A DNA stretch of 64,000 nt, taken from a virus. Made by a program: the position numbers and the translations under genes. This document shows positions 6,555 to 57,671 of the stretch, one piece after another; within the stretch, counting starts at the first letter, position 1, and every line of letters begins with the position of its first letter. The DNA lies in the IMG/VR virus record IMGVR_UViG_3300032236_001850, positions 364,392 through 428,391 of that record, one strand, 5' to 3'. Under the pieces are notes generated by a model, which was not told the origin of the DNA, did no database searches, and worked only from the letters and a program-made list of their open reading frames with translations.

Positions 6555-7103
6555 ATGATTATAAAATCTTTTTCTGAATTTAACGAATCCAATCTGGATG
6601 AATCATATTATGATCAATATCACGAAACCCATGGTAAGACATCTTTTACCAGATGGCTTAGAAAAATAGGTGATAAAATAGGAATAGGAGATAGTGGATA
6701 TACCAGTTACTATGCAGATTCTGATCCCAATTCTGACGCTATACTTAGTGGGAGAAGAGCTATTGCAGCTACTGTAAGTGGACTCGCAAAAGGTACCGCT
6801 TCATTTATAGATTTTTTATCTCCTGGTGAAGATATAAAATCCTGGAAAGATCTTGACAAGGAAGAAATAAAAAGAAGAAAAGAGGAGATTATTAGAAAAT
6901 GGGAAGCTGAGCATATAGAGAATAAACATGTTACTGACCACGATGCCGAGGAATTTTATAAATCTGGAGTTCTTAGAGGGAAAAAATATTTTGGTAACGA
7001 TTTTAAGCCACAAGATCCTAAAAGTAAGGATGAAGAGATATACAGAGATTATCTTAGAGATGTAATGAATACCTATTATAGAAAAACCAAAAAGAAAAAA
7101 TAG
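6555..7103 (+). CDS. Unknown protein with capsid-targeting-like N-terminus
   Basis: 182 residues. The head MIIKSFSEFNESNLDES carries the shared F-x-x-F pattern followed by x-N-E/L-D-E, where a prohead protease could cut. The body has a short hydrophobic stretch (AIAATVSGLAKGTASFIDFL, ~62-81) and a long charged helix, and ends in a basic tail (RKTKKKK). No known domain. It follows a GATATATA motif and is 11 bp before the nucleotidyltransferase gene, so the two are co-expressed. Confidence 0.6.
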   Translation: MIIKSFSEFNESNLDESYYDQYHETHGKTSFTRWLRKIGDKIGIGDSGYTSYYADSDPNSDAILSGRRAIAATVSGLAKGTASFIDFLSPGEDIKSWKDLDKEEIKRRKEEIIRKWEAEHIENKHVTDHDAEEFYKSGVLRGKKYFGNDFKPQDPKSKDEEIYRDYLRDVMNTYYRKTKKKK

Positions 7104-7114
7104 GATGAGTAACG

Positions 7115-8035
7115 ATGAATAGGATACTCAATTTTTCTGATTTTATTTTTGAAGGTGGTGCTGCTATAAAAACTTCCAGAAGAATAAGGGAGGATGAATT
7201 TCCAGAAACACTGAAGAGTATACAGGAAAATCTTTTTCCGCTTATTGGTATGGTTCCTAGCAGAATCAACGATCAATATGTTGTTATTGGTAGTATAGGT
7301 AAAAAACAAAATCCCGAGGATACATCTGGTGATTTAGATATTGGTTATGATGCAATATGGTATTCACAGGATAATGGCATAGAGAAAAAGGAATGTTCTA
7401 GTTTTATTTATGAGAAAATAAAAAATGGGATTGGTGATGTGCTTGGATTTGTACCAGAGATTAATTATATGAGAGGACTTAATATAGTTAGTTTGGGATG
7501 GCCAATAAAGGGTGATGAAAATAACGGTTTGGTTCAGCTTGACCTTATTCCTTTATCTGATATGGCATGGGCTGATTTCATATATTATTCACCAAACTAC
7601 AAAGTTGGTGAGAGTAAATATAAATCCGCTCATAGAAACTGGCTTTTAGCTGCTATATTATCAGCTAGGAAGGAGATTAGAGAAAGAGATCAATTTGGTG
7701 AAATATTGGATTATGATACGCCTGTTCTTATTTTAAGTGATGGTCTATATTGGCACACTAAATCATATAGAGGTAAGATAAAAGACAGATTAAAGAATCC
7801 TAAAAAAATAGAGGGAAGCGAGAGATTTATCACTAATGATCCTCAGGAATTTATAGATTTTGCTTTAGGTAAAGGTTATACGGAAGATGACGTTAAAACT
7901 TTTGAGAAGTTATTTAATATAGTAATTTCACCTGATTTTGAATTAAAAGATAAATTACCAGAAATAAAGGAAAGATTTTTGGAATTTTTACAAAGAGTTG
8001 GACTAGAAATACCTACAGAGGTTAACGAAATATAA
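7115..8035 (+). CDS. Nucleotidyltransferase-fold protein with capsid-targeting-like N-terminus
   Basis: 306 residues. The head MNRILNFSDFIFEGGAA shows F-x-x-F and then I-F-E before Gly, a fit to a prohead-protease site. The body has polymerase-beta-like nucleotidyltransferase marks: GS at 59-60, DLD at 73-75 (SGDLDIGYD) and a third Asp in VQLDLIPL near 144. Family members transfer nucleotides to RNA, proteins or small molecules; the substrate here is unknown. Gene order (nucleotidyltransferase then ligase/NMN adenylyltransferase, 20 bp apart) suggests a joint task on RNA or NAD. The promoter is late type. Confidence 0.7.
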   Translation: MNRILNFSDFIFEGGAAIKTSRRIREDEFPETLKSIQENLFPLIGMVPSRINDQYVVIGSIGKKQNPEDTSGDLDIGYDAIWYSQDNGIEKKECSSFIYEKIKNGIGDVLGFVPEINYMRGLNIVSLGWPIKGDENNGLVQLDLIPLSDMAWADFIYYSPNYKVGESKYKSAHRNWLLAAILSARKEIRERDQFGEILDYDTPVLILSDGLYWHTKSYRGKIKDRLKNPKKIEGSERFITNDPQEFIDFALGKGYTEDDVKTFEKLFNIVISPDFELKDKLPEIKERFLEFLQRVGLEIPTEVNEI

Positions 8036-13010: not shown

Positions 13011-13400
13011 ATGTCCAGAGAGATACTGATACAAGAAAATTATCCTAATGAACCTTGGAAAATGCTCGTTTGTTGTATATTATTAAACCAATCCCATAAT
13101 AGATCTGTACGACCGATTTTAGACGCCGTATTTGAATTTATTCCTGATCCTGATTCTGCAATCAAGTGTGATGTTGAAAGTCTAGCAGCGATCATAAAAC
13201 CAACCGGTTTGTACAACGTAAAGGCTAGAAGAATAAAATGGATGAGTGTGGGATACAAAAAAGGCTTTAAAAGAGTTACCGATCTACCAGGAATAGGTTT
13301 ATATGGTAATGAATCCTGGGAGATATTTGTTAATGGTAATCTCGACATAAAGCCAACGGATAAAAAGCTTAGAGCTTATTTGGATGCCGTTTTATTTTGA
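13011..13400 (+). CDS. MBD4-like HhH-GPD DNA glycosylase
   Basis: 129 residues, i.e. a bare catalytic domain. It follows the MBD4 catalytic domain: PWKMLVCCILLNQ (~15-27), IIKPTGLYNVKARRI (~61-75), the helix-hairpin-helix loop LPGIGLYGNESW (~92-103), and PTDKKLRAYL with the catalytic-type Asp117. There is no HhH Lys, so it should be monofunctional. MBD4 relatives remove T, U or 5-hydroxymethyl-U opposite G. Given the dCMP-hydroxymethylase-like gene at 39428, repair of deaminated hydroxymethyl-C is a natural role (inference). It has an early promoter and meets the minus-strand gene at 13392 end to end with a 9-bp overlap. Confidence 0.8.
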   Translation: MSREILIQENYPNEPWKMLVCCILLNQSHNRSVRPILDAVFEFIPDPDSAIKCDVESLAAIIKPTGLYNVKARRIKWMSVGYKKGFKRVTDLPGIGLYGNESWEIFVNGNLDIKPTDKKLRAYLDAVLF

Positions 13401-14363
13401 TATTTTTACTCTTAGATTTATTGGTTCTTTAAGTACTGGATTTGAAACATAGAAAGGTTTTGCAACTTCACATTTCACAAACTTTTTATTTTCACCTAAT
13501 GGTAGATATATTACATCACCAGGTTTAAACATCTTGTGAATTTTTAATTTTTTACCATCTCTTTCGAATTCAAGATCCATTTCTATATGATCGTCAAATA
13601 TTGCCCAATTATCTGTTCTACCAAATTTTTTGAATTTCTTATTAATGATTCTGAAAACCTTACCTGTAACAAATCCATCTTCCCCTAATTTGGATGCAAA
13701 TTTTATAGGTTTACCTTTCTTAAGATTATAAGTTTTTATTTTTGAATTATCAAGACCAAAGCTTTCTTTTGGTACTTTCTTTGATTCTTCTTCTGTGAGA
13801 ACTGTACCATCACTTGATATAAACAATTTAAAATCGTAGTTTTCCTTAGGTTTGGTAACAATATATTTGAGTTTTTCCTCATCGTATTTCACCTTACTTA
13901 ATCCTGCATGAAATTCTATTGACTTGTTTATTTCTTCGTGTGACTCGTCATCTTTAAAAATTCTTATAGTTCTTGCTATATTTTCAATAATTGGGATGTA
14001 AATCTGATTTCCCTCTTTTGCTGATTGCTCGGCTTTTAGATTAGCTGGAACATAAACATTTAGTGGATAAAATTTACCCATAAATTTAAAATGTGTTTCC
14101 ATCATGGGATAACCGGTTGCTGTTTTGTCTGGGAATTTTAACCATTTAAGAACCTCATTCAGTCTATGGTCATATTCCTTTGCAAGTAAATCAGCGCAAG
14201 ATTTTTTAATTTCCTCTATTTTTCCGTTATCGAAATAATTAGACAACATGGTGGGAAAATCTATATTTTCTGGTTTGTAAAATCTTTCAATCTCCTCAAC
14301 ATCAACCTTTATGGTTAATCTTGCTTCATTTATCCAACCCTGAAATTTTTTTAAATTGTTCAT
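13392..14363 (-). CDS. Unknown protein with capsid-targeting-like N-terminus
   Basis: 323 residues. The head MNNLKKFQGWINEARLT is one of the clearest copies: basic residues, F, W, then I-N-E before Ala. The rest has no motif I know; it contains many Lys and strands, with a possible beta-barrel-like C-terminal half (KPIKFASKLGEDGFVTGKVF). It lies on the minus strand, overlapping by 1 bp the stop of another gene with the same head. Likely packaged late protein (inference). Confidence 0.6.
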   Translation of the reverse strand: MNNLKKFQGWINEARLTIKVDVEEIERFYKPENIDFPTMLSNYFDNGKIEEIKKSCADLLAKEYDHRLNEVLKWLKFPDKTATGYPMMETHFKFMGKFYPLNVYVPANLKAEQSAKEGNQIYIPIIENIARTIRIFKDDESHEEINKSIEFHAGLSKVKYDEEKLKYIVTKPKENYDFKLFISSDGTVLTEEESKKVPKESFGLDNSKIKTYNLKKGKPIKFASKLGEDGFVTGKVFRIINKKFKKFGRTDNWAIFDDHIEMDLEFERDGKKLKIHKMFKPGDVIYLPLGENKKFVKCEVAKPFYVSNPVLKEPINLRVKISK

Positions 14364-14668
14364 TATTCTTTTTTCTTTGAATTTTTTGCTTGAAATGTTG
14401 TTTTTAGATATTCTGTTATATCTGATCCTGATTTCTTATCTTCATTCAGAAACTTATTAAATTCCTCGGATTTGCCACATTCATCTAAGAAATCATGAAA
14501 GTAGGCTTCTTCGTACATGGCATCTATAGTTTCTGGCATTGTTGGATCTGCGCTCTGGTAGTTTCTGCTATTTACTTTGGTCTGATAAGAATCACCTGGA
14601 ACATCAATACTTCCTGGAGAATCAATCCATTCATTAACAAAACCTTTAAATTTTTGTAAATTTTTCAT
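14363..14668 (-). CDS. Small acidic protein with capsid-targeting-like N-terminus
   Basis: 101 residues. The head MKNLQKFKGFVNEWIDS carries V-N-E where T4 internal proteins have I-A-E. The body is acidic with no known domain. First gene of a two-gene minus-strand unit starting 3 bp downstream of a late-type box. Confidence 0.6.
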   Translation of the reverse strand: MKNLQKFKGFVNEWIDSPGSIDVPGDSYQTKVNSRNYQSADPTMPETIDAMYEEAYFHDFLDECGKSEEFNKFLNEDKKSGSDITEYLKTTFQAKNSKKKE

Positions 14669-14737: not shown

Positions 14738-16144
14738 ATGATTATTGATATAGAGAATAAGGGAAGCTACTTAAATGTATCGCACTTCGGCCCTGAAGGA
14801 GAACTTGCATTCCTACACGTCCCAATACCTGAGGAGGAAAGATTTAATTGGGAAAAATGCAATCCTGGAGATCCTAAGAGGGATAAGGAATGGACAAACT
14901 GGAAGGGAGAACCAGTAAAGAAGGTAAAGACCGAAAGATATGACAAATATCGTATGGCTCAAATCCTAATGGAAGCTCCGGATGAATTAACAAAGCCCTT
15001 ATGGGAATATCAGGAACCTAAGAAATACTTCGTCGATATAGAGGTTGAGATAACCGAAGATAAAGCTGCATCACTGGATACTGAGAATGCTAGAAATAGG
15101 GTTCTTTCAATAGGTATTGGAACCGATAAAAGAAAAATATTAATTCTTGGACTCGACCCATTAACACCGGAACAGCAGGGAAGTATTTTTAATAAACTAA
15201 ACTCATATTTCGAAAAAACCGGAGACGAGTGGAGTTTCAAATATAAACAATTTGAAACCGAGTATGATATGATGTACACCTTTTTCCGTGAGCTTGGTCC
15301 TAAAATGTCAACCATTACTGGATGGAACTGGCTTGGGTATGACTGGCCATATTTGGTTAATAGAGCTAAAAGACTTGGAATAGATCCAAAAATAATATCT
15401 CCTGGAAAAACCCTTATTGGCAAGGGACAATTACCACAGCACCTATTGATGTTTGACTACTTGGAGATTTATAAAAAATGGGACAGAGTTATTAAAATCA
15501 AGGAAAGTAATAGACTTGATTATGTTGCAGAAAAAGCTGTTGGTTTCAAGAAGATAACTTATGATGGAACACTGAGAGATTTATACCAATCAAATTTTGA
15601 AGATTTTATCTACTATAATGCTGTCGATTGTGCTCTAGTTCACTATATAGATCAGAAGCTTAAAACCATGCAAACTTTCTTTAAGATTGCGATGATATCT
15701 GGTGTTGAAATAAATAGATGTCTTTCTCCTGTTTGGTCCACTGAGGTTCTTATGATGAAGAAATTTCTGGAAAGAAAACAGGTTCTTACCGCTGAGAAAA
15801 AAGAGGAGGTTCATGTTAAATTTGCTGGTGGATACGTTAAAGATCCTATAAAGGGATTGCATGGTTGGGTAGCATGTTACGATTTTGCTTCGCTATATCC
15901 TAATACAATGGTACAGTGGGGAATTTCACCTGAATCTTATAAAGGAAAAAATCTATTGAATCCTAAGGAAGCTTGGATAAAATGTGCTTCCGGTGCATAC
16001 TTTGGAAATGATGACGATAACCCAATATTAAAAATAATAATCAAGGATTTATATTCCAGAAGAAGAAAAACTAAGGATAAAATGCTTGAATTAGAGCTAG
16101 AAATTGATGCTTTGAAAAAAGAATTGGCCAAGGCGAAAAATTAA
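14738..16144 (+). CDS. 43: DNA polymerase (family B), N-terminal half: exonuclease and motif A
   Basis: 468 residues matching the first half of T4 gp43 (898 residues). Exo I VDIEVEI holds D100 and E102; Exo II GWNWLGYDWPYL lies near 195-206; Exo III YNAVDCALV near 290; polymerase motif A DFASLYPNTM near 382-391. It then enters the first fingers helix and stops after a charged coiled-coil end (KMLELELEIDALKKEL). Motifs B and C are absent here and are found in the gene at 30471. The stop is genuine: no frameshift restores the reading frame and a late-type box follows. Active polymerase must need both chains. Confidence 0.93.
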   Translation: MIIDIENKGSYLNVSHFGPEGELAFLHVPIPEEERFNWEKCNPGDPKRDKEWTNWKGEPVKKVKTERYDKYRMAQILMEAPDELTKPLWEYQEPKKYFVDIEVEITEDKAASLDTENARNRVLSIGIGTDKRKILILGLDPLTPEQQGSIFNKLNSYFEKTGDEWSFKYKQFETEYDMMYTFFRELGPKMSTITGWNWLGYDWPYLVNRAKRLGIDPKIISPGKTLIGKGQLPQHLLMFDYLEIYKKWDRVIKIKESNRLDYVAEKAVGFKKITYDGTLRDLYQSNFEDFIYYNAVDCALVHYIDQKLKTMQTFFKIAMISGVEINRCLSPVWSTEVLMMKKFLERKQVLTAEKKEEVHVKFAGGYVKDPIKGLHGWVACYDFASLYPNTMVQWGISPESYKGKNLLNPKEAWIKCASGAYFGNDDDNPILKIIIKDLYSRRRKTKDKMLELELEIDALKKELAKAKN

Positions 16145-20240: not shown

Positions 20241-20909
20241 ATGGAAAACAACAAATGGTTTAATGACGATGTCATAAAAAAATTCGATGAATTTTTAAAC
20301 GAGAGAGAATTACCAGATTCTCAGGGGGATGTACTAGTTATGCTAGGAGCTCCTGGCTCCGGTAAAGGAACACTTTCAAAACAGCTGAATGAAAAATTTG
20401 GGATAAATCATATATCAACTGGTGATCTAATAAGAAAATCCGATGATCCTGAATTGAAGAAAATAGTTGAGTCAGGAAAGTTCATATCCGATGAAATGAT
20501 GCTTAAAATGCTAAGAAAAGAGCTAAAAAAGCTTGATCTTAATAAAGGTATAATTTTTGATGGATATCCAAGAACAATAAAACAAGCGAGAAAGCTTGAT
20601 TCGTTATTGGGTAAATTGGGTCTTGGTTTAAATCATGCTATATTTATGGATCTTCCGGAGGATAAGGCTAAGGAGAGAATAAGAAATAGAGCTAAGAAGG
20701 AGGGAAGAAAGGATGATGCAAGTGATGAGGTTATAGATAAAAGATTTGCCGAATATCACGAGAAAACTTTTCCTCTTGTTGATTTTTACAAGAAAAGCAG
20801 AAAATTAATAAAAATTGATGCTGATCTTGGTATGGAAGGAGTTCTTAAATCCATAGTTAAAAAGTTGGGTCTTAAAAAACCTAAAAAGAATAGAGATGAA
20901 AAAATCTAG
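20241..20909 (+). CDS. adk: Adenylate kinase with an extra N-terminal tag-like extension
   Basis: 222 residues. The kinase starts at VLVMLGAPGSGKGT (P-loop 36-44), then HISTGDLIR, the GIIFDGYPRT segment, a short lid (RAKKEGRKDDAS) and DKRFAEYHEKT. It interconverts adenine nucleotides or phosphorylates dNMPs for the neighbouring reductase. The 30-residue extension before the P-loop contains KKFDEFLNERELP, which looks like the capsid-targeting head with an L-N-E site, 12 residues inside the chain. Cleavage there would leave an intact kinase. No late-type box is seen nearby, so packaging is uncertain. Ends in a basic tail. Confidence 0.88.
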   Translation: MENNKWFNDDVIKKFDEFLNERELPDSQGDVLVMLGAPGSGKGTLSKQLNEKFGINHISTGDLIRKSDDPELKKIVESGKFISDEMMLKMLRKELKKLDLNKGIIFDGYPRTIKQARKLDSLLGKLGLGLNHAIFMDLPEDKAKERIRNRAKKEGRKDDASDEVIDKRFAEYHEKTFPLVDFYKKSRKLIKIDADLGMEGVLKSIVKKLGLKKPKKNRDEKI

Positions 20910-22874: not shown

Positions 22875-23408
22875 ATGAGACACCTTTTGGAATTTGAATC
22901 TTATGAAGGCTTAGATGAAGCTGGAATACCAATATATAATGCTGATGACTTTAGAAGGAGTCCTTCCAGTGAACCTGAGGATGAGGTATCAACCACTAAA
23001 ATCTTCTCCTATATAAAGGATCTATTGGAACAACAAAAAGCTGGACAGATAGAAGAAATCAGTATGACTGTGGATTTACCATTACAAGGTAAAAAAGCTC
23101 CACAACACGTTCTTGATACTCTTGACGCTGAAAGAAAAAGAATAGAGAAAGAACAGTATGCTATTAGAGGTAGCAGAACAGAAGCAGCTGATGTTGCTCC
23201 TGGTGATAATATCTACGGTGGTGAAGGTAGAAATCTTTTTGTTGATAGTGAGTATATAGTTACAGGAATCACCAATTTGGATGGAACAGATTACATTATA
23301 GGATTACCGGTTTCTAAGAAAAAAGAAGCTTTTAGTTCCCCTGAATCTATAGCTTATTATTCAACTTTTATAGAACCTAAACAAATAGAAGAAGTTTTTT
23401 ATTCATAG
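22875..23408 (+). CDS. Unknown protein with capsid-targeting-like N-terminus
   Basis: 177 residues. The head MRHLLEFESYEGLDEAGIP has F-x-x-Y and L-D-E before Ala. The rest is acidic alpha/beta with no known motif; the last ~60 residues (GGEGRNLFVDSEYIVTGITN) look like a small beta domain. Transcribed alone from a late-type box to a terminator. Confidence 0.6.
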   Translation: MRHLLEFESYEGLDEAGIPIYNADDFRRSPSSEPEDEVSTTKIFSYIKDLLEQQKAGQIEEISMTVDLPLQGKKAPQHVLDTLDAERKRIEKEQYAIRGSRTEAADVAPGDNIYGGEGRNLFVDSEYIVTGITNLDGTDYIIGLPVSKKKEAFSSPESIAYYSTFIEPKQIEEVFYS

Positions 23409-30470: not shown

Positions 30471-31616
30471 ATGACTCCAGAAGAAATTAAAGAGATTGAA
30501 GAAAAAATAGAGAGGCTCACCGCTCTTAAAAATGAGTATAAGAACGAGGAGCAAGCAGTAAAGTTAACAATGAACTCCATCTATGGAGCGATTGGTAACA
30601 ACTATTTCGTTTGCTTCAATCCTGATGTTGCCGAGGCGGTAACCCTCCAGGGTCAGGATCTTATCAAATACTCTGAAAAAATATTACATAAGTATTTCCA
30701 TGAACATTGGCATCTTGACACGGAGCTGCACGAAAAACTTGGATTGACTCAGGTTAAAAGAGTTACAAATCCATTAGTCGTTTATGGAGATACTGATTCT
30801 AATTATGTTACATTTCAGGAGGTGGTGGATTCCTGTGATTATCAGGGGGATGCTAAGGATCTAATTATTAAGATAAATCAATATAGACTTAATGATTATC
30901 TTAAAAAATGTTTTGATATCTACTCCAAAAAATGGAACACCGAGAACTATCAGGATTTTGAGCTTGAAACACTTGCTATAAATGCTATATTTCTCGGTAA
31001 GAAAAAATATGTTGCAAATCTTGTTTATGATTCGGGATTGCACATGGAACCTCTTTCAACATTAAAAACCACTGGTGTTGAGATGATTAAGGGAGGTACA
31101 CCGCCTTTCGTTAGAGAGAAACTTATCTACTTAACCAAATTGATCTTTAGTAAAGGTAGATCTTTCGATATACGTGAGTTTGTGAAGGAACTTAAATCAA
31201 TTAAGAAGGAGTTCAAGTTACAGGAACCTCAGAATATATCGGCTTCCATAAATGTGAATAGCTATGATAAGATACTGAACGATACAACAGGATTTGAAGT
31301 TGCTAAGGCTTGTCCTATACATGTTAGAGCATCAGGTTATCACAACTATCTTTTGAACAATTCACCATACAAGACCAAGTACTCGCTCATCCGTGCGGGA
31401 GATAAAGTTAATTTATATTTTGTAAAAACTAAAAATATAAATGATAGTAACATATTTGCATATCCACAGGGAACATTTCCGTACGAATTTGCTCCGCCTT
31501 TGGATTACGATGAACAATTCACAAAAACCATTCTTGATCCCATAAACAGATTCATCGAGGTGATGGGATACAACCAAATAAGTCCCAATCTATTTATGGT
31601 TAACGCTCTTTTTTAA
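30471..31616 (+). CDS. 43: DNA polymerase (family B), C-terminal half: motifs B and C, palm and thumb
   Basis: 381 residues. It opens with a charged helix (MTPEEIKEIEEKIERLTALK), then motif B KLTMNSIYGAIGNNYF near 31-46, motif C VVYGDTDSNYV near 103-113, and the thumb. The C-terminus NQISPNLFMVNALF resembles the clamp-binding tail of T4 gp43 (ASLDFLF). Together with the gene at 14738 it sums to 849 residues, near gp43 (898). Its first helix would pair with the last helix of the N-terminal chain as the two antiparallel fingers helices. Placed next to the clamp gene. Confidence 0.93.
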   Translation: MTPEEIKEIEEKIERLTALKNEYKNEEQAVKLTMNSIYGAIGNNYFVCFNPDVAEAVTLQGQDLIKYSEKILHKYFHEHWHLDTELHEKLGLTQVKRVTNPLVVYGDTDSNYVTFQEVVDSCDYQGDAKDLIIKINQYRLNDYLKKCFDIYSKKWNTENYQDFELETLAINAIFLGKKKYVANLVYDSGLHMEPLSTLKTTGVEMIKGGTPPFVREKLIYLTKLIFSKGRSFDIREFVKELKSIKKEFKLQEPQNISASINVNSYDKILNDTTGFEVAKACPIHVRASGYHNYLLNNSPYKTKYSLIRAGDKVNLYFVKTKNINDSNIFAYPQGTFPYEFAPPLDYDEQFTKTILDPINRFIEVMGYNQISPNLFMVNALF

Positions 31617-31902: not shown

Positions 31903-31910
31903 GATATATA
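31903..31910 (+). promoter_or_regulatory. Late-type promoter motif GATATATA
   Basis: TTTAGGATATATACATG lies 20 bp before the RimK-RimB fusion gene and after the end of the polymerase unit. Confidence 0.6.
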
Positions 31911-31929: not shown

Positions 31930-33405
31930 ATGATGATATCAAAAAATGTACTGGACTTTTCCTCTTTTCTAAACGAAGCAAAATCCAATGCTGTTCAGGT
32001 AATTATGCTAATAGGAGGTGGAACCAATGAGTTCTCAAGATCCTTTGAAGCAGAGTGTAAGAAGAAAAAAATAAAGGTAACTGTATTTGACGTTGATCTT
32101 GCCGAAGTTACCAGAAATAAAACCGGTGGTGGACACACAGTAACGGAAGGCAAAAAAATTGCTTCCATAGATCCATCAAATACTGTTGTTATTGCTAGAT
32201 CTGGGTGTCTTAAGAGCACACATAATAAGGAGCTTCTTATGGAGCTTGAAAATTCTAAATATTATGTTGTGAATAGATTAAGACCGATGGAAATATGTGA
32301 AAATAAATACATCACATCAGAGTTTCTTGAAAATTTAGATTTACCCGTTCCTAGATATTCTCTTATAGCATCTGAAGATCATATAGATGCAGCAGTTAAA
32401 AAAATCGGTGGTAAATTTCCAGTTGTTATGAAACTTCTTACTGGATCTCAAGGTATTGGTGTTTCCATTATTGATTCTCCAAATTCACTTAAATCTGTTT
32501 ATCAAACAATTAAAAAACTTGACGAGAAGAGTGAGGTATTAATACAGGAAAAAATAGAATCCAAATACGATCTAAGGATACATGTTATTATTAGAGACAC
32601 AAGTATTAAAAATATAAATAACACTGATAACTTCAAGGTTATTGGTGCTATGAGAAGAAATGCAGTTGGTAAGGATTTCAGAACAAATTATTCCCTTGGT
32701 GGAACGGTATCTAATGTTAAACTTAGTAAGGAAGTAATTGAAACAGCAATTAAAGCTGCTAGTGCAGTTGGATGTAATTGGTGTGGTGTTGATATAATGA
32801 TCGACGAGAAAACTAAAAAACCTTACATATTGGAAGTTAATTCATCTCCTGGTACTGAGGGCATATCTAAAGCATTAGGTAAACCTATTGTGGATGATGT
32901 TATAAAATTTGTAATGAACAGAGAAAATTGGGTTATACCTTCATCAGAAGTTGGTTACTTAGAGGTTATGGAAATAGAGGGTCTAGGTAAGGTGATAGCT
33001 AAATTTGATACTGGTAATGGTACTCTTTGTTGTTGTTTACATGGTGATAAATTGGAGGTTAAAGGTAAAACCTTACATTTCCAAATAGGTCATAAAAAAT
33101 TCACAAAAAAAATAACTGGATATACTGATGTTTCTGGTGGTATGCACACTAAAGGAACAAAGAAAATGCCAACGGTTAAGATGGATTTAAAATTTGATGG
33201 TGCATGGACAAAAGATGTTGATGTTGCAATAGTAGATAGAACAGATAAGAGCACACCATTTTTAGTTAATAGAAAAACTATGAGACAAATGAATGTTATA
33301 GTAAATCCAAACACAAAATTCATAGTTACTGAAAATTTTGACGATAGATATAGTCAATATACATCAAAAGGAAAACCTCATGCAGGTATTGAATTTGAAA
33401 AATAA
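31930..33405 (+). CDS. RimK-like ATP-grasp ligase fused to RimB-like retropepsin domain, with capsid-targeting-like N-terminus
   Basis: 491 residues. The head MMISKNVLDFSSFLNEAKSN has F-x-x-F and L-N-E before Ala (14-16); cutting there leaves the first strand of the enzyme (VQVIMLIGGG) intact. Residues ~20-330 are a RimK-type glutamate ligase: GKFPVVMKLLTGSQGIGV, LIQEKIESKYDLRIHVI, GAMRRNAVG and metal ligands in YILEVNSSPG. Residues ~335-470 match RimB-type (DUF785) aspartic proteases: GYLEVMEIEGLG, AKFDTGNGT near 360 and LVNRKTMRQMNV. RimK adds glutamates to ribosomal protein S6 and RimB trims them. Fusing both in one phage protein with a packaging tag is striking. Start could also be the second ATG at 31933. 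Confidence 0.82.
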   Translation: MMISKNVLDFSSFLNEAKSNAVQVIMLIGGGTNEFSRSFEAECKKKKIKVTVFDVDLAEVTRNKTGGGHTVTEGKKIASIDPSNTVVIARSGCLKSTHNKELLMELENSKYYVVNRLRPMEICENKYITSEFLENLDLPVPRYSLIASEDHIDAAVKKIGGKFPVVMKLLTGSQGIGVSIIDSPNSLKSVYQTIKKLDEKSEVLIQEKIESKYDLRIHVIIRDTSIKNINNTDNFKVIGAMRRNAVGKDFRTNYSLGGTVSNVKLSKEVIETAIKAASAVGCNWCGVDIMIDEKTKKPYILEVNSSPGTEGISKALGKPIVDDVIKFVMNRENWVIPSSEVGYLEVMEIEGLGKVIAKFDTGNGTLCCCLHGDKLEVKGKTLHFQIGHKKFTKKITGYTDVSGGMHTKGTKKMPTVKMDLKFDGAWTKDVDVAIVDRTDKSTPFLVNRKTMRQMNVIVNPNTKFIVTENFDDRYSQYTSKGKPHAGIEFEK

Positions 33406-33420
33406 AAATAAATAAATAGA

Positions 33421-33648
33421 ATGGAAAACTTAAGAGAATTCGGAAAAATTAACTCTAGATTAAGCGAGTCCGAAGAAAAAGCAGAAAAAGACGAAAAGAT
33501 CCAAGTTTTGCTTTCTGGTGAAGATTTAAGTGATCTAACAAGAAAGATAGCGAAAAAAGCTTTATCTAAAGGTGAAGCTCCTGTATCTGTATCTCACTAT
33601 GTTAGATCACTAATTAGAAGAGATCTTGGTAAAACTACTAAAGACTAA
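33421..33648 (+). CDS. Small basic-tailed protein, capsid-targeting-like head, possible ribbon-helix-helix
   Basis: 75 residues. The head MENLREFGKINSRLSESEEK has F and an L-S-E site. The C-terminal half (LTRKIAKKALSKG...SHYVRSLIRRDLG) resembles a ribbon-helix-helix DNA-binding unit. Follows the RimK-RimB gene by 15 bp in the same late-type unit. Its stop overlaps that of the opposite-strand acidic gene. Confidence 0.55.
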   Translation: MENLREFGKINSRLSESEEKAEKDEKIQVLLSGEDLSDLTRKIAKKALSKGEAPVSVSHYVRSLIRRDLGKTTKD

Positions 33649-34124
33649 TTCTTACCGAAAAAATCAGTGTATGATAAAACCCTACGGTCATTAGATTGTG
33701 GGGTTTCTTCTTGATTACCAGTTTCCATCTCTGCATCATCAGGTTCAGATAAATCATCTTCATCCTCCTCGTCGTAATCTGCATCGTCGTCATCCTCATA
33801 CTCCTCATCTGGATTTTCTACCTCCTCGTCATCCTCGTACTCTTCGTCTGGATTTTCTACCTCTTCATCATCATCGTAGTCTGAGTTGTCTTCATCTTCC
33901 TCATACTCTGAGTCGTCATAGTCCTCATCCTCCTCGTCGTATTCATCATCATAATCCTCATCTTCTGATTCGTCGTCATATGTTTCATAATCATCGTTAC
34001 CGTAGTCTGAGTCATCGGTATCATAAGTTTCATACTCCTCTCCATATTCACCTGATTGTGAATCGTCACCAGATAGATATGAATCGTCATTAATAAACTC
34101 GTCTTCTTCTTTTAAATGTTTCAT
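33645..34124 (-). CDS. Extremely acidic repeat protein with tag-like ends
   Basis: 159 residues, well over half Asp/Glu plus many Tyr. A 39-bp tandem repeat (33799-33837 and 33838-33876) encodes 13 residues (EVENPDEEYEDDE-like). The N-terminus MKHLKEEDEFINDDSYL partly fits the capsid-targeting pattern (I-N-D rather than I-N-E), and the C-terminus ends VLSYTDFFGKN, close to the MISYKEFVDKN end of the Cys-repeat protein. Such a polyanion could mimic DNA, neutralise packaged basic proteins or bind metal; all inference. A late-type box lies 26 bp upstream on the same strand. Confidence 0.65.
   Translation of the reverse strand: MKHLKEEDEFINDDSYLSGDDSQSGEYGEEYETYDTDDSDYGNDDYETYDDESEDEDYDDEYDEEDEDYDDSEYEEDEDNSDYDDDEEVENPDEEYEDDEEVENPDEEYEDDDDADYDEEDEDDLSEPDDAEMETGNQEETPQSNDRRVLSYTDFFGKN
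33799..33876 (-). repeat. 39-bp tandem repeat, two copies, coding
   Basis: Copies 33799-33837 and 33838-33876 differ mainly at third codon positions. They encode the NPDEEYEDD repeat of the acidic protein, so the repeat is maintained at protein level. Confidence 0.85.
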
Positions 34125-34150: not shown

Positions 34151-34158
34151 TATATATC
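34151..34158 (-). promoter_or_regulatory. Late-type promoter motif, possibly bidirectional
   Basis: The minus strand reads GTAGATATATATATTC, 26 bp before the acidic gene at 34124. The plus strand of the same AT block (GAATATATATATC) is about 25 bp before the ATG at 34183, whose product also has the tag-like head. One block may serve both. Confidence 0.5.
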
Positions 34159-46076: not shown

Positions 46077-46469
46077 ATGGAAAGAATAAAAAGTTTTGAT
46101 TTATTTGAGGATGAAAGTATTGGTCCTCCTGAACAAAAAATATACAGTAAATATTACCAGGGACCTTCTGCCTGGCCTACAGTTGTTGATGCGTTAGCTA
46201 TTATTAGTAAAAATCAAAACGGAGATGGAGATGGAGATGGTTTAGTAAAGCCATCACAGGAGCTAGTTGATTTTATTAAAGACAACAGTTCGGAGGATGG
46301 ATTAGATAGTTCAATAGCAGGATTTTTTACTGAAATATTGAAAGCAGTTAAAATTGCTAATAGTAGTTTATATACCAAACTGGGTGGAGAATCAATGATT
46401 AGAGCTATTGAGGGAATGCAGAACGATTACGTTGCTACCCACAACACAGATGGTACTAAAAAATTCTAA
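46077..46469 (+). CDS. Unknown protein with capsid-targeting-like N-terminus
   Basis: 130 residues. The head MERIKSFDLFEDESIG has F-x-x-F and L-F-E before Asp. The next gene begins with a near copy of it (MERIASFEQF), suggesting duplication of the tag. The body is helical and has a short Gly-Asp repeat (GDGDGDG). Function unknown. Confidence 0.6.
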   Translation: MERIKSFDLFEDESIGPPEQKIYSKYYQGPSAWPTVVDALAIISKNQNGDGDGDGLVKPSQELVDFIKDNSSEDGLDSSIAGFFTEILKAVKIANSSLYTKLGGESMIRAIEGMQNDYVATHNTDGTKKF

Positions 46470-46513
46470 ATCATTAGAAAGCAGCAAAGATAAATTAAAA
46501 AAAATACACAAAA

Positions 46514-46948
46514 ATGGAAAGAATAGCTTCATTTGAACAATTCAAAAGAAATGGCGCATCAATGGATGAATATAATTCTGAGATAGAGGCAACAAACGAA
46601 AATAGTACGGATGACAAAAAACATTATATGTTTTTTAGAAATGTGCAATCAATCAAGCACTATATTGATGAGATCATGAAAATGGACAAAGATAAAATCG
46701 ATGAACTTCTTGAGGATGGTCATGATTGGGCTGCTGATCACATATCAACCGCTAAAACAGACATTGAGGAAGTTGCTGAATGGTTAAGAGACGAATTTGA
46801 AGATGCAGAGGAATCTGACGATGAGGAAGAAAATGAACCGGAGGAAGCAGAAGAAACTGAGGAGGAACCAGAAGGTGAGGAATCTGATGAAACAGGAGAA
46901 GAACCAGAAGGGGAGGAAGAGGAAAAAACAGGAAAGGAACCTCTATAA
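46514..46948 (+). CDS. Acidic-tailed protein with capsid-targeting-like N-terminus
   Basis: 144 residues. The head MERIASFEQFKRNGAS is similar to its neighbour's, but the L/I-x-E site is unclear. A helical middle is followed by ~50 residues of Glu-rich tail with EEPEGEE repeats. As with the other polyanionic proteins here, it could offset basic proteins in the head or mimic DNA (inference). A terminator follows. Confidence 0.6.
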   Translation: MERIASFEQFKRNGASMDEYNSEIEATNENSTDDKKHYMFFRNVQSIKHYIDEIMKMDKDKIDELLEDGHDWAADHISTAKTDIEEVAEWLRDEFEDAEESDDEEENEPEEAEETEEEPEGEESDETGEEPEGEEEEKTGKEPL

Positions 46949-56488: not shown

Positions 56489-56700
56489 TTTCTATTAGGG
56501 AATAAAGGATCTGGTTGTATATCTGGATCCTTCTTATTCTTTAAATATTCCATGGCGGACATACCGACCTGGTCTATAAAACTTGGCATCTTGAATGGCT
56601 CTCTACATTCACCACCAACATTAACACTCCCCACCAGACCTGGATTCATAGCTTCCAGTCTTTTAGAGATCATGTCTAAATATTCTTGACTTGGTTTCAT
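56485..56700 (-). CDS. Small unknown protein
   Basis: 71 residues, Pro- and Met-rich with no known domain (NPGLVGSVNVGGECREPFKM). Second gene of a minus-strand pair; its start overlaps the upstream stop by one base. Convergent with the small membrane gene. Confidence 0.55.
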   Translation of the reverse strand: MKPSQEYLDMISKRLEAMNPGLVGSVNVGGECREPFKMPSFIDQVGMSAMEYLKNKKDPDIQPDPLFPNRN

Positions 56701-57671
56701 TATTTTAGCTTACCTACTAATTTCTTTATCTTTTCTGGATCTTCCAATAGTCCTGGATTCTGTGCATCATAATCCATGAATTTCTTGCTTAATTTTGGAT
56801 TTTCTAGAACCGCAGTTATTAGATCCATAGCTTTATTGTCCGGTATATTTACTATGGCTTTAAAGAACGTCTTCATGTCAAGGTCATCAAAAAGGGAAAC
56901 TATTCTTTTGCATGCTTCAATTGATAATTCATCATTAATAGATGTTCCATATGTTTTTACGAAAGTTGGGATGTTGACATTCCCTTCCAATATCGATTTT
57001 ATAGCTGATGGTCCTAAATTTATTGCCGATGCATATAAGATGTCCTCAATTATATTTATAACGTCCAATTTTTCTTCTCTTGTATAGAATGGATGATCCT
57101 TGGTTATAACGGTAGCATGAAATCCTCCGTTATAATCATTAACTGTATCCACATTGGGGTTACCATATATCGTTACATAACCAGGTGCAGGAGCGCTCAA
57201 TCTTATTGCCATATTATCAATTAGTTCCTTTGCTGAATCACGTCGAGATGAATATCCTCTGGTTCCTCTATAATGAGGCCATCCGCTAGAAGTGCTCTCA
57301 GCTGGTAAGCTTATATCTGCTTTTCTAAAAGTTCTTTTATTTATAAGATTGCTTATAATATTAACAGTTGATGTTCTTCTTTCTGGTCTTTGTGTAACAA
57401 GACCATTTTCATCGTCTCTATATAAATCAAAATCACTAAATGGAACTAGATCGAATTTCTTTTTTAGCTCAGCAAACTCTGGTATCTGAAGAAGCTCCTC
57501 AAACTTAGGAAGATATTTGGTGATTTCCTTTTTAGGTGGTTTCTTCATACCAGCAAATCCCGACTTCTTAAGAATGTTATTAACCTTCTGTAGCTTTTTA
57601 AAATTTTCTATATCTAGTGGCTTTTCTTCCTCGTTTTCGTTCATGAGGAATTCTTTGAATTTTTTAATCAC
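56700..57671 (-). CDS. Unknown protein with capsid-targeting-like N-terminus
   Basis: 323 residues. The head MIKKFKEFLMNENEEE is the copy closest to T4 MKTYQEFIAEA: basic, F-x-x-F, L, then M-N-E. A basic linker follows, then a large helical domain (LSIEACKRIVSLFDDLDMKTFF) with no family I recognise. Its length equals that of the minus-strand gene at 13392, but the bodies do not look alike. A late-type box lies 19 bp upstream. Confidence 0.6.
   Translation of the reverse strand: MIKKFKEFLMNENEEEKPLDIENFKKLQKVNNILKKSGFAGMKKPPKKEITKYLPKFEELLQIPEFAELKKKFDLVPFSDFDLYRDDENGLVTQRPERRTSTVNIISNLINKRTFRKADISLPAESTSSGWPHYRGTRGYSSRRDSAKELIDNMAIRLSAPAPGYVTIYGNPNVDTVNDYNGGFHATVITKDHPFYTREEKLDVINIIEDILYASAINLGPSAIKSILEGNVNIPTFVKTYGTSINDELSIEACKRIVSLFDDLDMKTFFKAIVNIPDNKAMDLITAVLENPKLSKKFMDYDAQNPGLLEDPEKIKKLVGKLK

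Follow-up and report, generated by a model that had tools for sequence, protein, structure and literature searches.

A RimK–RimB fusion protein of a giant T4-like virus, with a capsid-targeting-like leader, as a candidate virion-delivered polyglutamate ligase and protease

RimK extends the C-terminus of ribosomal protein S6 with glutamates; RimB takes these off again and also stimulates the formation of poly-glutamate (PMC7343187, PMC11957791). In 2008, Monier, Claverie and Ogata reported phage RimK in ocean contigs beside regA, some copies carrying a C-terminal DUF785 domain (PF05618), and noted the reverse domain order in bacteria and the phage order in haloarchaea (PMC2530865). Their report dealt with metagenome fragments and called the C-terminal domain unknown, and it contained no packaging signal, protease assignment, virion link or jumbo phages (PMC2530865). 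Little and colleagues identified RimB as a retropepsin in 2025, and found the protease of bacterial RimBK to be active, with no ligase activity seen (PMC11957791). Desulfotalea psychrophila DP2392 RimBK joins RimB and RimK in one chain, as the protein studied here does, and its RimB part cuts polyglutamylated RpsF (PMC11957791). The RimK–RimB fusion was described in these papers (PMC2530865, PMC11957791) before the original prediction was made for the present locus; the packaging evidence seems to be new within the literature searched.

Packaged proteins are exemplified by phage T4. The T4 internal proteins IPII and IPIII bear a removable N-terminal leader, [YF]xxF[IL]xE, in a genome that also encodes a head protease, and both features recur in the context of the present gene. 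Residues 4 and 7 of the IPIII leader act in targeting and residues 8 and 10 in processing, and the head protease gp21 cleaves after L/I-x-E (PMC9026906). T4 Alt is an ejected protein-modifying enzyme with ADP-ribosyltransferase chemistry, whereas the protein described here is a predicted ligase–protease and a candidate for packaging and ejection.

In this study, a window of 64,000 nucleotides was analysed, namely positions 364392-428391 of a virus record of 434,509 bases. The record carries T4-type replication genes, and its source is a giant T4-like virus of bacteria. The gene of interest, here RimKB, was found as the original prediction had placed it, together with the following features:

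31903 to 31910, + strand: GATATATA, a motif resembling a late promoter, with the RimKB start codon 19 nt downstream
31930 to 33405, + strand: RimK–RimB fusion gene (RimKB), 491 aa
31930 to 31977, + strand: capsid-targeting-like leader, residues 1-16, with a predicted cut before A17
31990 to 32928, + strand: RimK-type ATP-grasp ligase domain, residues about 21-333
32833 to 32853, + strand: EVNSSPG motif, residues 302-308
32938 to 33339, + strand: RimB/RloA-type retropepsin domain, residues about 337-470
33007 to 33015, + strand: predicted catalytic DTG, residues 360-362, followed by N363

The best explanation of this locus, which we consider reasonably probable, is that RimKB is an Alt-like polyglutamate writer and eraser delivered by the virion. 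A DNA search with the 20 kb around RimKB against phage records gave no match. Scans of viral contigs returned 408 encoded relatives, from which 80 loci were kept and 49 non-redundant proteins were defined; identities within the family go down to 34%, and one member that is cut short by a frame change (L070) was kept as read.

The N-terminal half of RimKB is a RimK-type ATP-grasp ligase by sequence and fold. Residues 124-326 match PF08443 (E=1.2e-32; 113.5 against a cut-off of 21 bits), and the score against the RimK-type family model TIGR00768 is marginally above its cut-off (143.9 against 143.4 bits). An AlphaFold2 model built with 43 relatives was confident over nearly the whole chain (mean pLDDT 88.8), and its closest solved fold was E. 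coli RimK (5zct, TM 0.87, E=6e-23), and the complex of RimK with RpsF (5zk6) also ranked in the first five structural matches. E302 and N304 of RimKB align with E260 and N262 of E. coli RimK. Among the 49 non-redundant phage relatives, the ATP/Mg catalytic set K168, R243, R251, N253, D288, E302 and N304 is invariant, as are R216, S305, S306 and G308, and the proline of EVNSSPG is kept in 48.

The C-terminal half is a RimB/RloA-type retropepsin domain, an assignment carried by the profile of the family. RimKB alone matches PF05618 weakly (E=0.02) and does not reach the gathering score (15.0-18.3 against 27 bits); among the 28 members of a profile of the phage domain, 22 match PF05618 at E<=0.01 (best 3.5e-10). 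This 28-sequence profile matches the RloA-type structures 9g59 (3e-13) and 9g58 (2e-10) and the related structure 2pma (4e-11) over the whole domain, with DTG and two arginine positions aligned. RimKB and the RimB/RloA retropepsins (9g58, 9g59; PMC12239564) have in common the fold by profile, DTG and, it appears, conserved arginines; the known enzymes stand alone, and RloA is secreted, whereas RimKB is fused. DTGN occurs in all 48 phage relatives that retain the protease domain; this asparagine differs from the alanine after DTG in RloA-type enzymes, to which the RloA paper draws attention (PMC12239564). Mutants of R114 and R137 showed that both residues matter for polyglutamate cleavage by RloA (PMC12239564). 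The polyglutamate-contacting K46, R114 and R137 of RloA were matched to RimKB by counting along the aligned 2pma/9g59: R437, the putative equivalent of R137, is present in 48/48 relatives and the arginine matching R114 in 45/48, the RimKB of the window having M413 instead. K358, matched to K46, is kept in 42/48. The original prediction had proposed a ligase with EVNSSPG and a retropepsin-like domain with DTG near residue 360, and had named as refuting a C-terminal part unlike RimB or the loss of ATP-grasp or aspartate residues in homologues; by profile the C-terminal part is RimB/RloA-like, and these residues are conserved. A chance reading of the domains is ruled out by the Pfam/NCBIfam matches, residue conservation, profile match and fold match.

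The amino acid that is ligated is less closely defined by these models, and the strongest rival, which we regard as unlikely, is that the ligase half attaches an amino acid other than glutamate, or produces a free peptide, with the protease half as a peptide trimmer. Relatives in the RimK superfamily (LysX, MptN, CofF and peptide ligases) do so, and RimB has a stimulating effect on the formation of free poly-glutamate by RimK (PMC11957791). Of the NCBIfam models, RimKB reaches the cut-off of the broad RimK family alone; every equivalog model fails, including the S6-specific glutamate ligase NF007764 (89.5 against 331 bits, far below), and the MptN model scores higher (132 bits). Against this, the protease half is similar to enzymes that cleave runs of glutamate (PMC12239564), R437 is invariant with K358 and the R114 equivalent mostly kept, and RimK, including its complex with RpsF, is the top structural match.

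The phage proteins form a lineage of their own, although strict monophyly is not proven. Two bacterial RimBK (L116, L119) and three haloarchaeal RimKB (L126-L128) were included in the tree, and neither group clusters with the phage proteins. The phage proteins had their own fork with 98/98 support in a first tree; in a second, two archaeal RimK sequences fell among the deepest, unresolved phage branches, which is why the monophyly is qualified. Bacterial RimBK has RimB first, opposite to RimKB, and no leader, and its RimK part groups with ordinary bacterial RimK in the two sequences placed, so that capture of a bacterial RimBK is ruled out by domain order and tree. The haloarchaeal RimK-DUF785 proteins have the order of RimKB, RimK followed by a DTG-containing RimB-like domain, but are distant, cellular, leaderless and on a separate branch; an origin from them has no support in the tree, in which the group is thinly sampled by three sequences. 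The marine RimK-DUF785 of 2008, which has the same domain order and a T4-like context beside regA, very likely belongs to this family, for which Pelagibacter phage Mosig is the example in the present data. Methylophage Melnitz has a RimK-only protein inside the phage group, which suggests loss of the protease half. The cyanophage 'ribosomal protein S6 glutaminyl transferase' of S-RIM8 and S-RIM32, near gp23 in S-RIM32, is also a phage RimK, but is about 290 aa long, consists of RimK only and groups with Pseudoalteromonas RimK, thereby pointing to a separate acquisition and a separate lineage. The sole bacterial-genome match with the C-terminal domain (L093) proved to be a pelagiphage contig in a MAG; the S6 of that MAG does not end in glutamate, and no inference was drawn since the MAG need not be the host. 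Some relatives depart from the common architecture. A second RimK-like ATP-grasp gene lies directly downstream of RimKB at L009:7346-8314; its product has a leader-like N-terminus (FKDY) and its branch is very long. The RimKB genes at L077:908-3076 and L078:1728-3896 encode about 230 extra N-terminal residues that resemble a nucleotidyltransferase by eye (FTFGRFQPPTIGH).

The N-terminus of RimKB reads F10-S-S-F13-L14-N-E16, followed by A17. The original prediction had taken LNE (residues 14-16) for a packaging tag, and the comparison gave stronger support than that prediction could have known. IPII and IPIII of T4, translated from NC_000866, share this pattern at residues 4-11 (aromatic-x-x-F-I-x-E|A), and the targeting and processing positions of IPIII correspond to the conserved aromatic, aromatic, I/L and E of the RimKB leaders. 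The strict motif is present in 34/49 relatives and a loose form in 7 more. With open reading frame starts picked mechanically and shared descent ignored, [FY]xx[FYW][LIVMF]xE occurs near the N-terminus in 35/52 relatives, compared with 40/985 neighbouring genes and 35/5331 internal windows; a tag common to all genes is thereby ruled out, since 67% of the family but 4% of the neighbours carry it. The leader is kept though the rest of RimKB has diverged to 34-46% identity across phages; some members of this diverse family begin MEKFKSFITEAK. Residues 1-18 are the sole long stretch of the model with pLDDT below 50, which fits a removable leader. Given the likeness of this leader to the tags that load proteins into the T4 head, RimKB is probably injected with the viral DNA.

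A head maturation (gp21-type) protease that could recognise such a leader is encoded in the record (PF03420, E=9e-10; phrog_207), and the major capsid protein gene comes after it:

G000:C1:296799-298763 (= L124:16800-18764): head protease with repeats, 654 aa

The chain of this protease continues into 13 tandem 14-residue repeats (residues 298-472), [YF]xxY[LVI][AG]E-NLDK-xI, so that the motif of the cargo leader is repeated in a scaffold-like protein. We consider it a candidate fusion of protease and scaffold that carries its own mimics of the cargo and its own cleavage sites; five matches to the repeat motif are present in the protease of a relative (L066). In the sister clade of L051 and L066, RimKB adjoins the protease-scaffold and gp23 (capsid) genes, and further genes with an F-x-x-F-[LIV]-x-E start lie close to it. 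Eight consecutive genes at L051:12219-15911, near the capsid gene, have F-x-[ED]-F-[LIV]-N-E near the N-terminus and likely form an island of capsid-targeted proteins. Two tandem portal-protein genes were also observed at G000:C1:282552-285843 (phrog_213, E=3e-55 and 5e-68).

Other genes of the window have similar starts. An adenylate kinase at 20241-20909 (+; PF00406, E=4e-39) has an N-terminal FDEFLNE leader and is possibly another packaged enzyme. Leader-like N-termini were also noted at 6555-8035, 13392-14668 (-), 22875-23408, 46077-46948 and 56700-57671 (-); 14363-14668 has a weak Pfam match below the cut-off, and the other leader-bearing genes of this set have none. The leader-bearing genes that lack an assigned function are candidates for injected proteins.

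The motif GATATATA is probably the late promoter of this jumbo phage group, judging from where it occurs. It precedes RimKB in 23 relatives, compared with 42/434 other + strand genes in those loci, and 13 copies were counted in the window against 5.8 expected. Sites in the window were as follows:

954, 6529, 11376, 22846, 31903, 40742 and 46052, + strand: GATATATA
14675, 34151 and 57690, - strand: GATATATA

On both strands, GATATATA stands about 17-26 nt before the portal, head-protease and many leader-bearing genes, and a leader-like start is found in 5/9 window genes with the motif compared with 8/97 without it (p=0.001). None of the named replication genes of the window (the gp43 pieces, topoisomerase II subunits and ribonucleotide reductase) is preceded by it. 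The T4 late-promoter sequence TATAAATA has six + strand matches in the window, none of them before RimKB, where GATATATA stands instead.

Immediately beyond RimKB, two small genes complete the neighbourhood:

33421 to 33648, + strand: 75-aa gene directly downstream of RimKB, kept in 18 loci of the jumbo clade
33645 to 34124, - strand: gene convergent with RimKB, encoding a very acidic protein of 159 aa and preceded by a separate GATATATA at 34151-34158 (-)

The 75-aa product has a faint likeness to transcription regulators (phrog_536, E=0.015). The acidic protein is 53% D/E and ends in RVLSYTDFF; in 15 relatives an acidic minus-strand gene with an RVLxFxDF-like C-terminal end lies 180-313 bp downstream of RimKB. 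By analogy with the acidic core proteins of T4, it could be a prohead core protein. This conserved gene, with its own GATATATA and C-terminal F-x-D-F motif, would be one possible substrate if RimKB entered the prohead and glutamylated or trimmed a phage core or scaffold protein during assembly, with no part as a host-takeover effector, and the head-locus linkage of RimKB in another clade is in keeping with such a role. We nevertheless judge it improbable: the acidic gene was found in the jumbo clade alone, whereas RimKB is far wider, and the C-termini of the acidic proteins (D, N, Q, K, I, S and others) offer no conserved glutamate acceptor.

The wider surroundings of RimKB are of the replication type. 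Polymerase and sliding-clamp-like genes are syntenic with it in the window, and topoisomerase II subunits and ribonucleotide reductase lie near the gp43 pieces; the DNA polymerase gp43 itself is split into two genes about 14 kb apart (14738-16144 and 30471-31616). In Pelagibacter phage Mosig and its relatives, RimKB and regA are coupled within the replication cluster, and gp43 and gp45 are syntenic in Mosig. Yersinia phage YerA41 has a full-length homologue (33.5% identity over 91% of the query) annotated as a structural protein, which was equated by name and gene order with g112, 'Ribosomal protein modification protein', a middle-expressed gene beside ribonucleotide reductase whose product was detected in phage particles by LC-MS/MS (PMC7354516). 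The F-x-x-F leader is absent from its N-terminus. The particle list also includes replication enzymes (PMC7354516), so that g112 may be carry-over, and its detection is support and not proof. A gene annotated as a mono-ADP-ribosylating toxin lies about 1.4 kb from this homologue (L003:10764-11138). The synteny with regA, gp43 and gp45, and with the polymerase and clamp-like genes of the window, together with middle expression in YerA41, would suit an ordinary intracellular accessory gene of the replication and translation-control region, whose product modifies host ribosomes once expressed and has an incidental leader, but we judge this improbable given a leader kept when the rest diverged to about 35% identity, a separate late-type promoter within the replication cluster and head-gene linkage elsewhere.

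The virion-delivered polyglutamate writer and eraser accounts for the domains and catalytic residues, the match and conservation of the leader, the repeats of the head protease, the shared promoter motif, the head-gene linkage of L051/L066 and the presence of YerA41 g112 in particles. What the sequences themselves show is that both domains keep their catalytic residues, that RimKB has the leader and the promoter motif, and that it is linked to head genes in a sister clade. The remaining steps we infer. RimKB would be transcribed late from the GATATATA promoter, and its F-x-x-F-L-x-E leader would co-assemble with the prohead scaffold, that is, the protease-scaffold with its 13 motif copies. The head protease would cut after E16, and the mature protein would be ejected with the DNA into the next host; delivery of this kind, as for Alt, is what the packaging evidence suggests. 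There, the RimK domain with ATP would ligate glutamates onto the C-terminus of a target protein, possibly S6 or another protein of host translation. The aspartic protease of RimB type, as a dimer, would trim long chains. With both activities in one chain, one polypeptide would set and limit the tail, and tail length could be set without host RimA or c-di-GMP.

Several observations weigh against this explanation. The coupling to regA in Mosig and middle expression in YerA41 are neither typical of late expression, and the YerA41 homologue lacks the leader and comes from particles that contain replication enzymes. The S6 equivalog score falls short, M413 occupies the R114 position, and bacterial RimBK has no detected RpsF ligase activity (PMC11957791). 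Ribosomal protein S6 is a plausible substrate; a phage-encoded S6 was sought in the record and none was found, which rejects that form of the substrate. The interpretation given in the original prediction is supported for the domain fusion and the packaging tag. Its action on ribosomal S6, where the score is far below that of the specific model and the record has no S6, or on RNA polymerase is conjectural, as are glutamate as the added residue and action at the first moment of infection. The wider proposal, that widespread T4-like and jumbo phages package and inject a self-contained polyglutamate writer and eraser, which puts a new tag on a host protein of translation or transcription ahead of any phage gene expression, is offered tentatively.

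No function has been demonstrated for phage RimK since it became known in 2008, and the head-cargo evidence provides a concrete hypothesis for it. If true, RimKB would be an Alt-like takeover effector in which amino-acid ligation replaces ADP-ribosylation, a reversible protein tailing system that arrives with the DNA, and a new chemistry for virion-borne host takeover. It could also help to find a role of RimK and RimB beyond S6 modification, and the combined signature of leader and GATATATA could be used to catalogue all the proteins that these uncultured jumbo phages inject.
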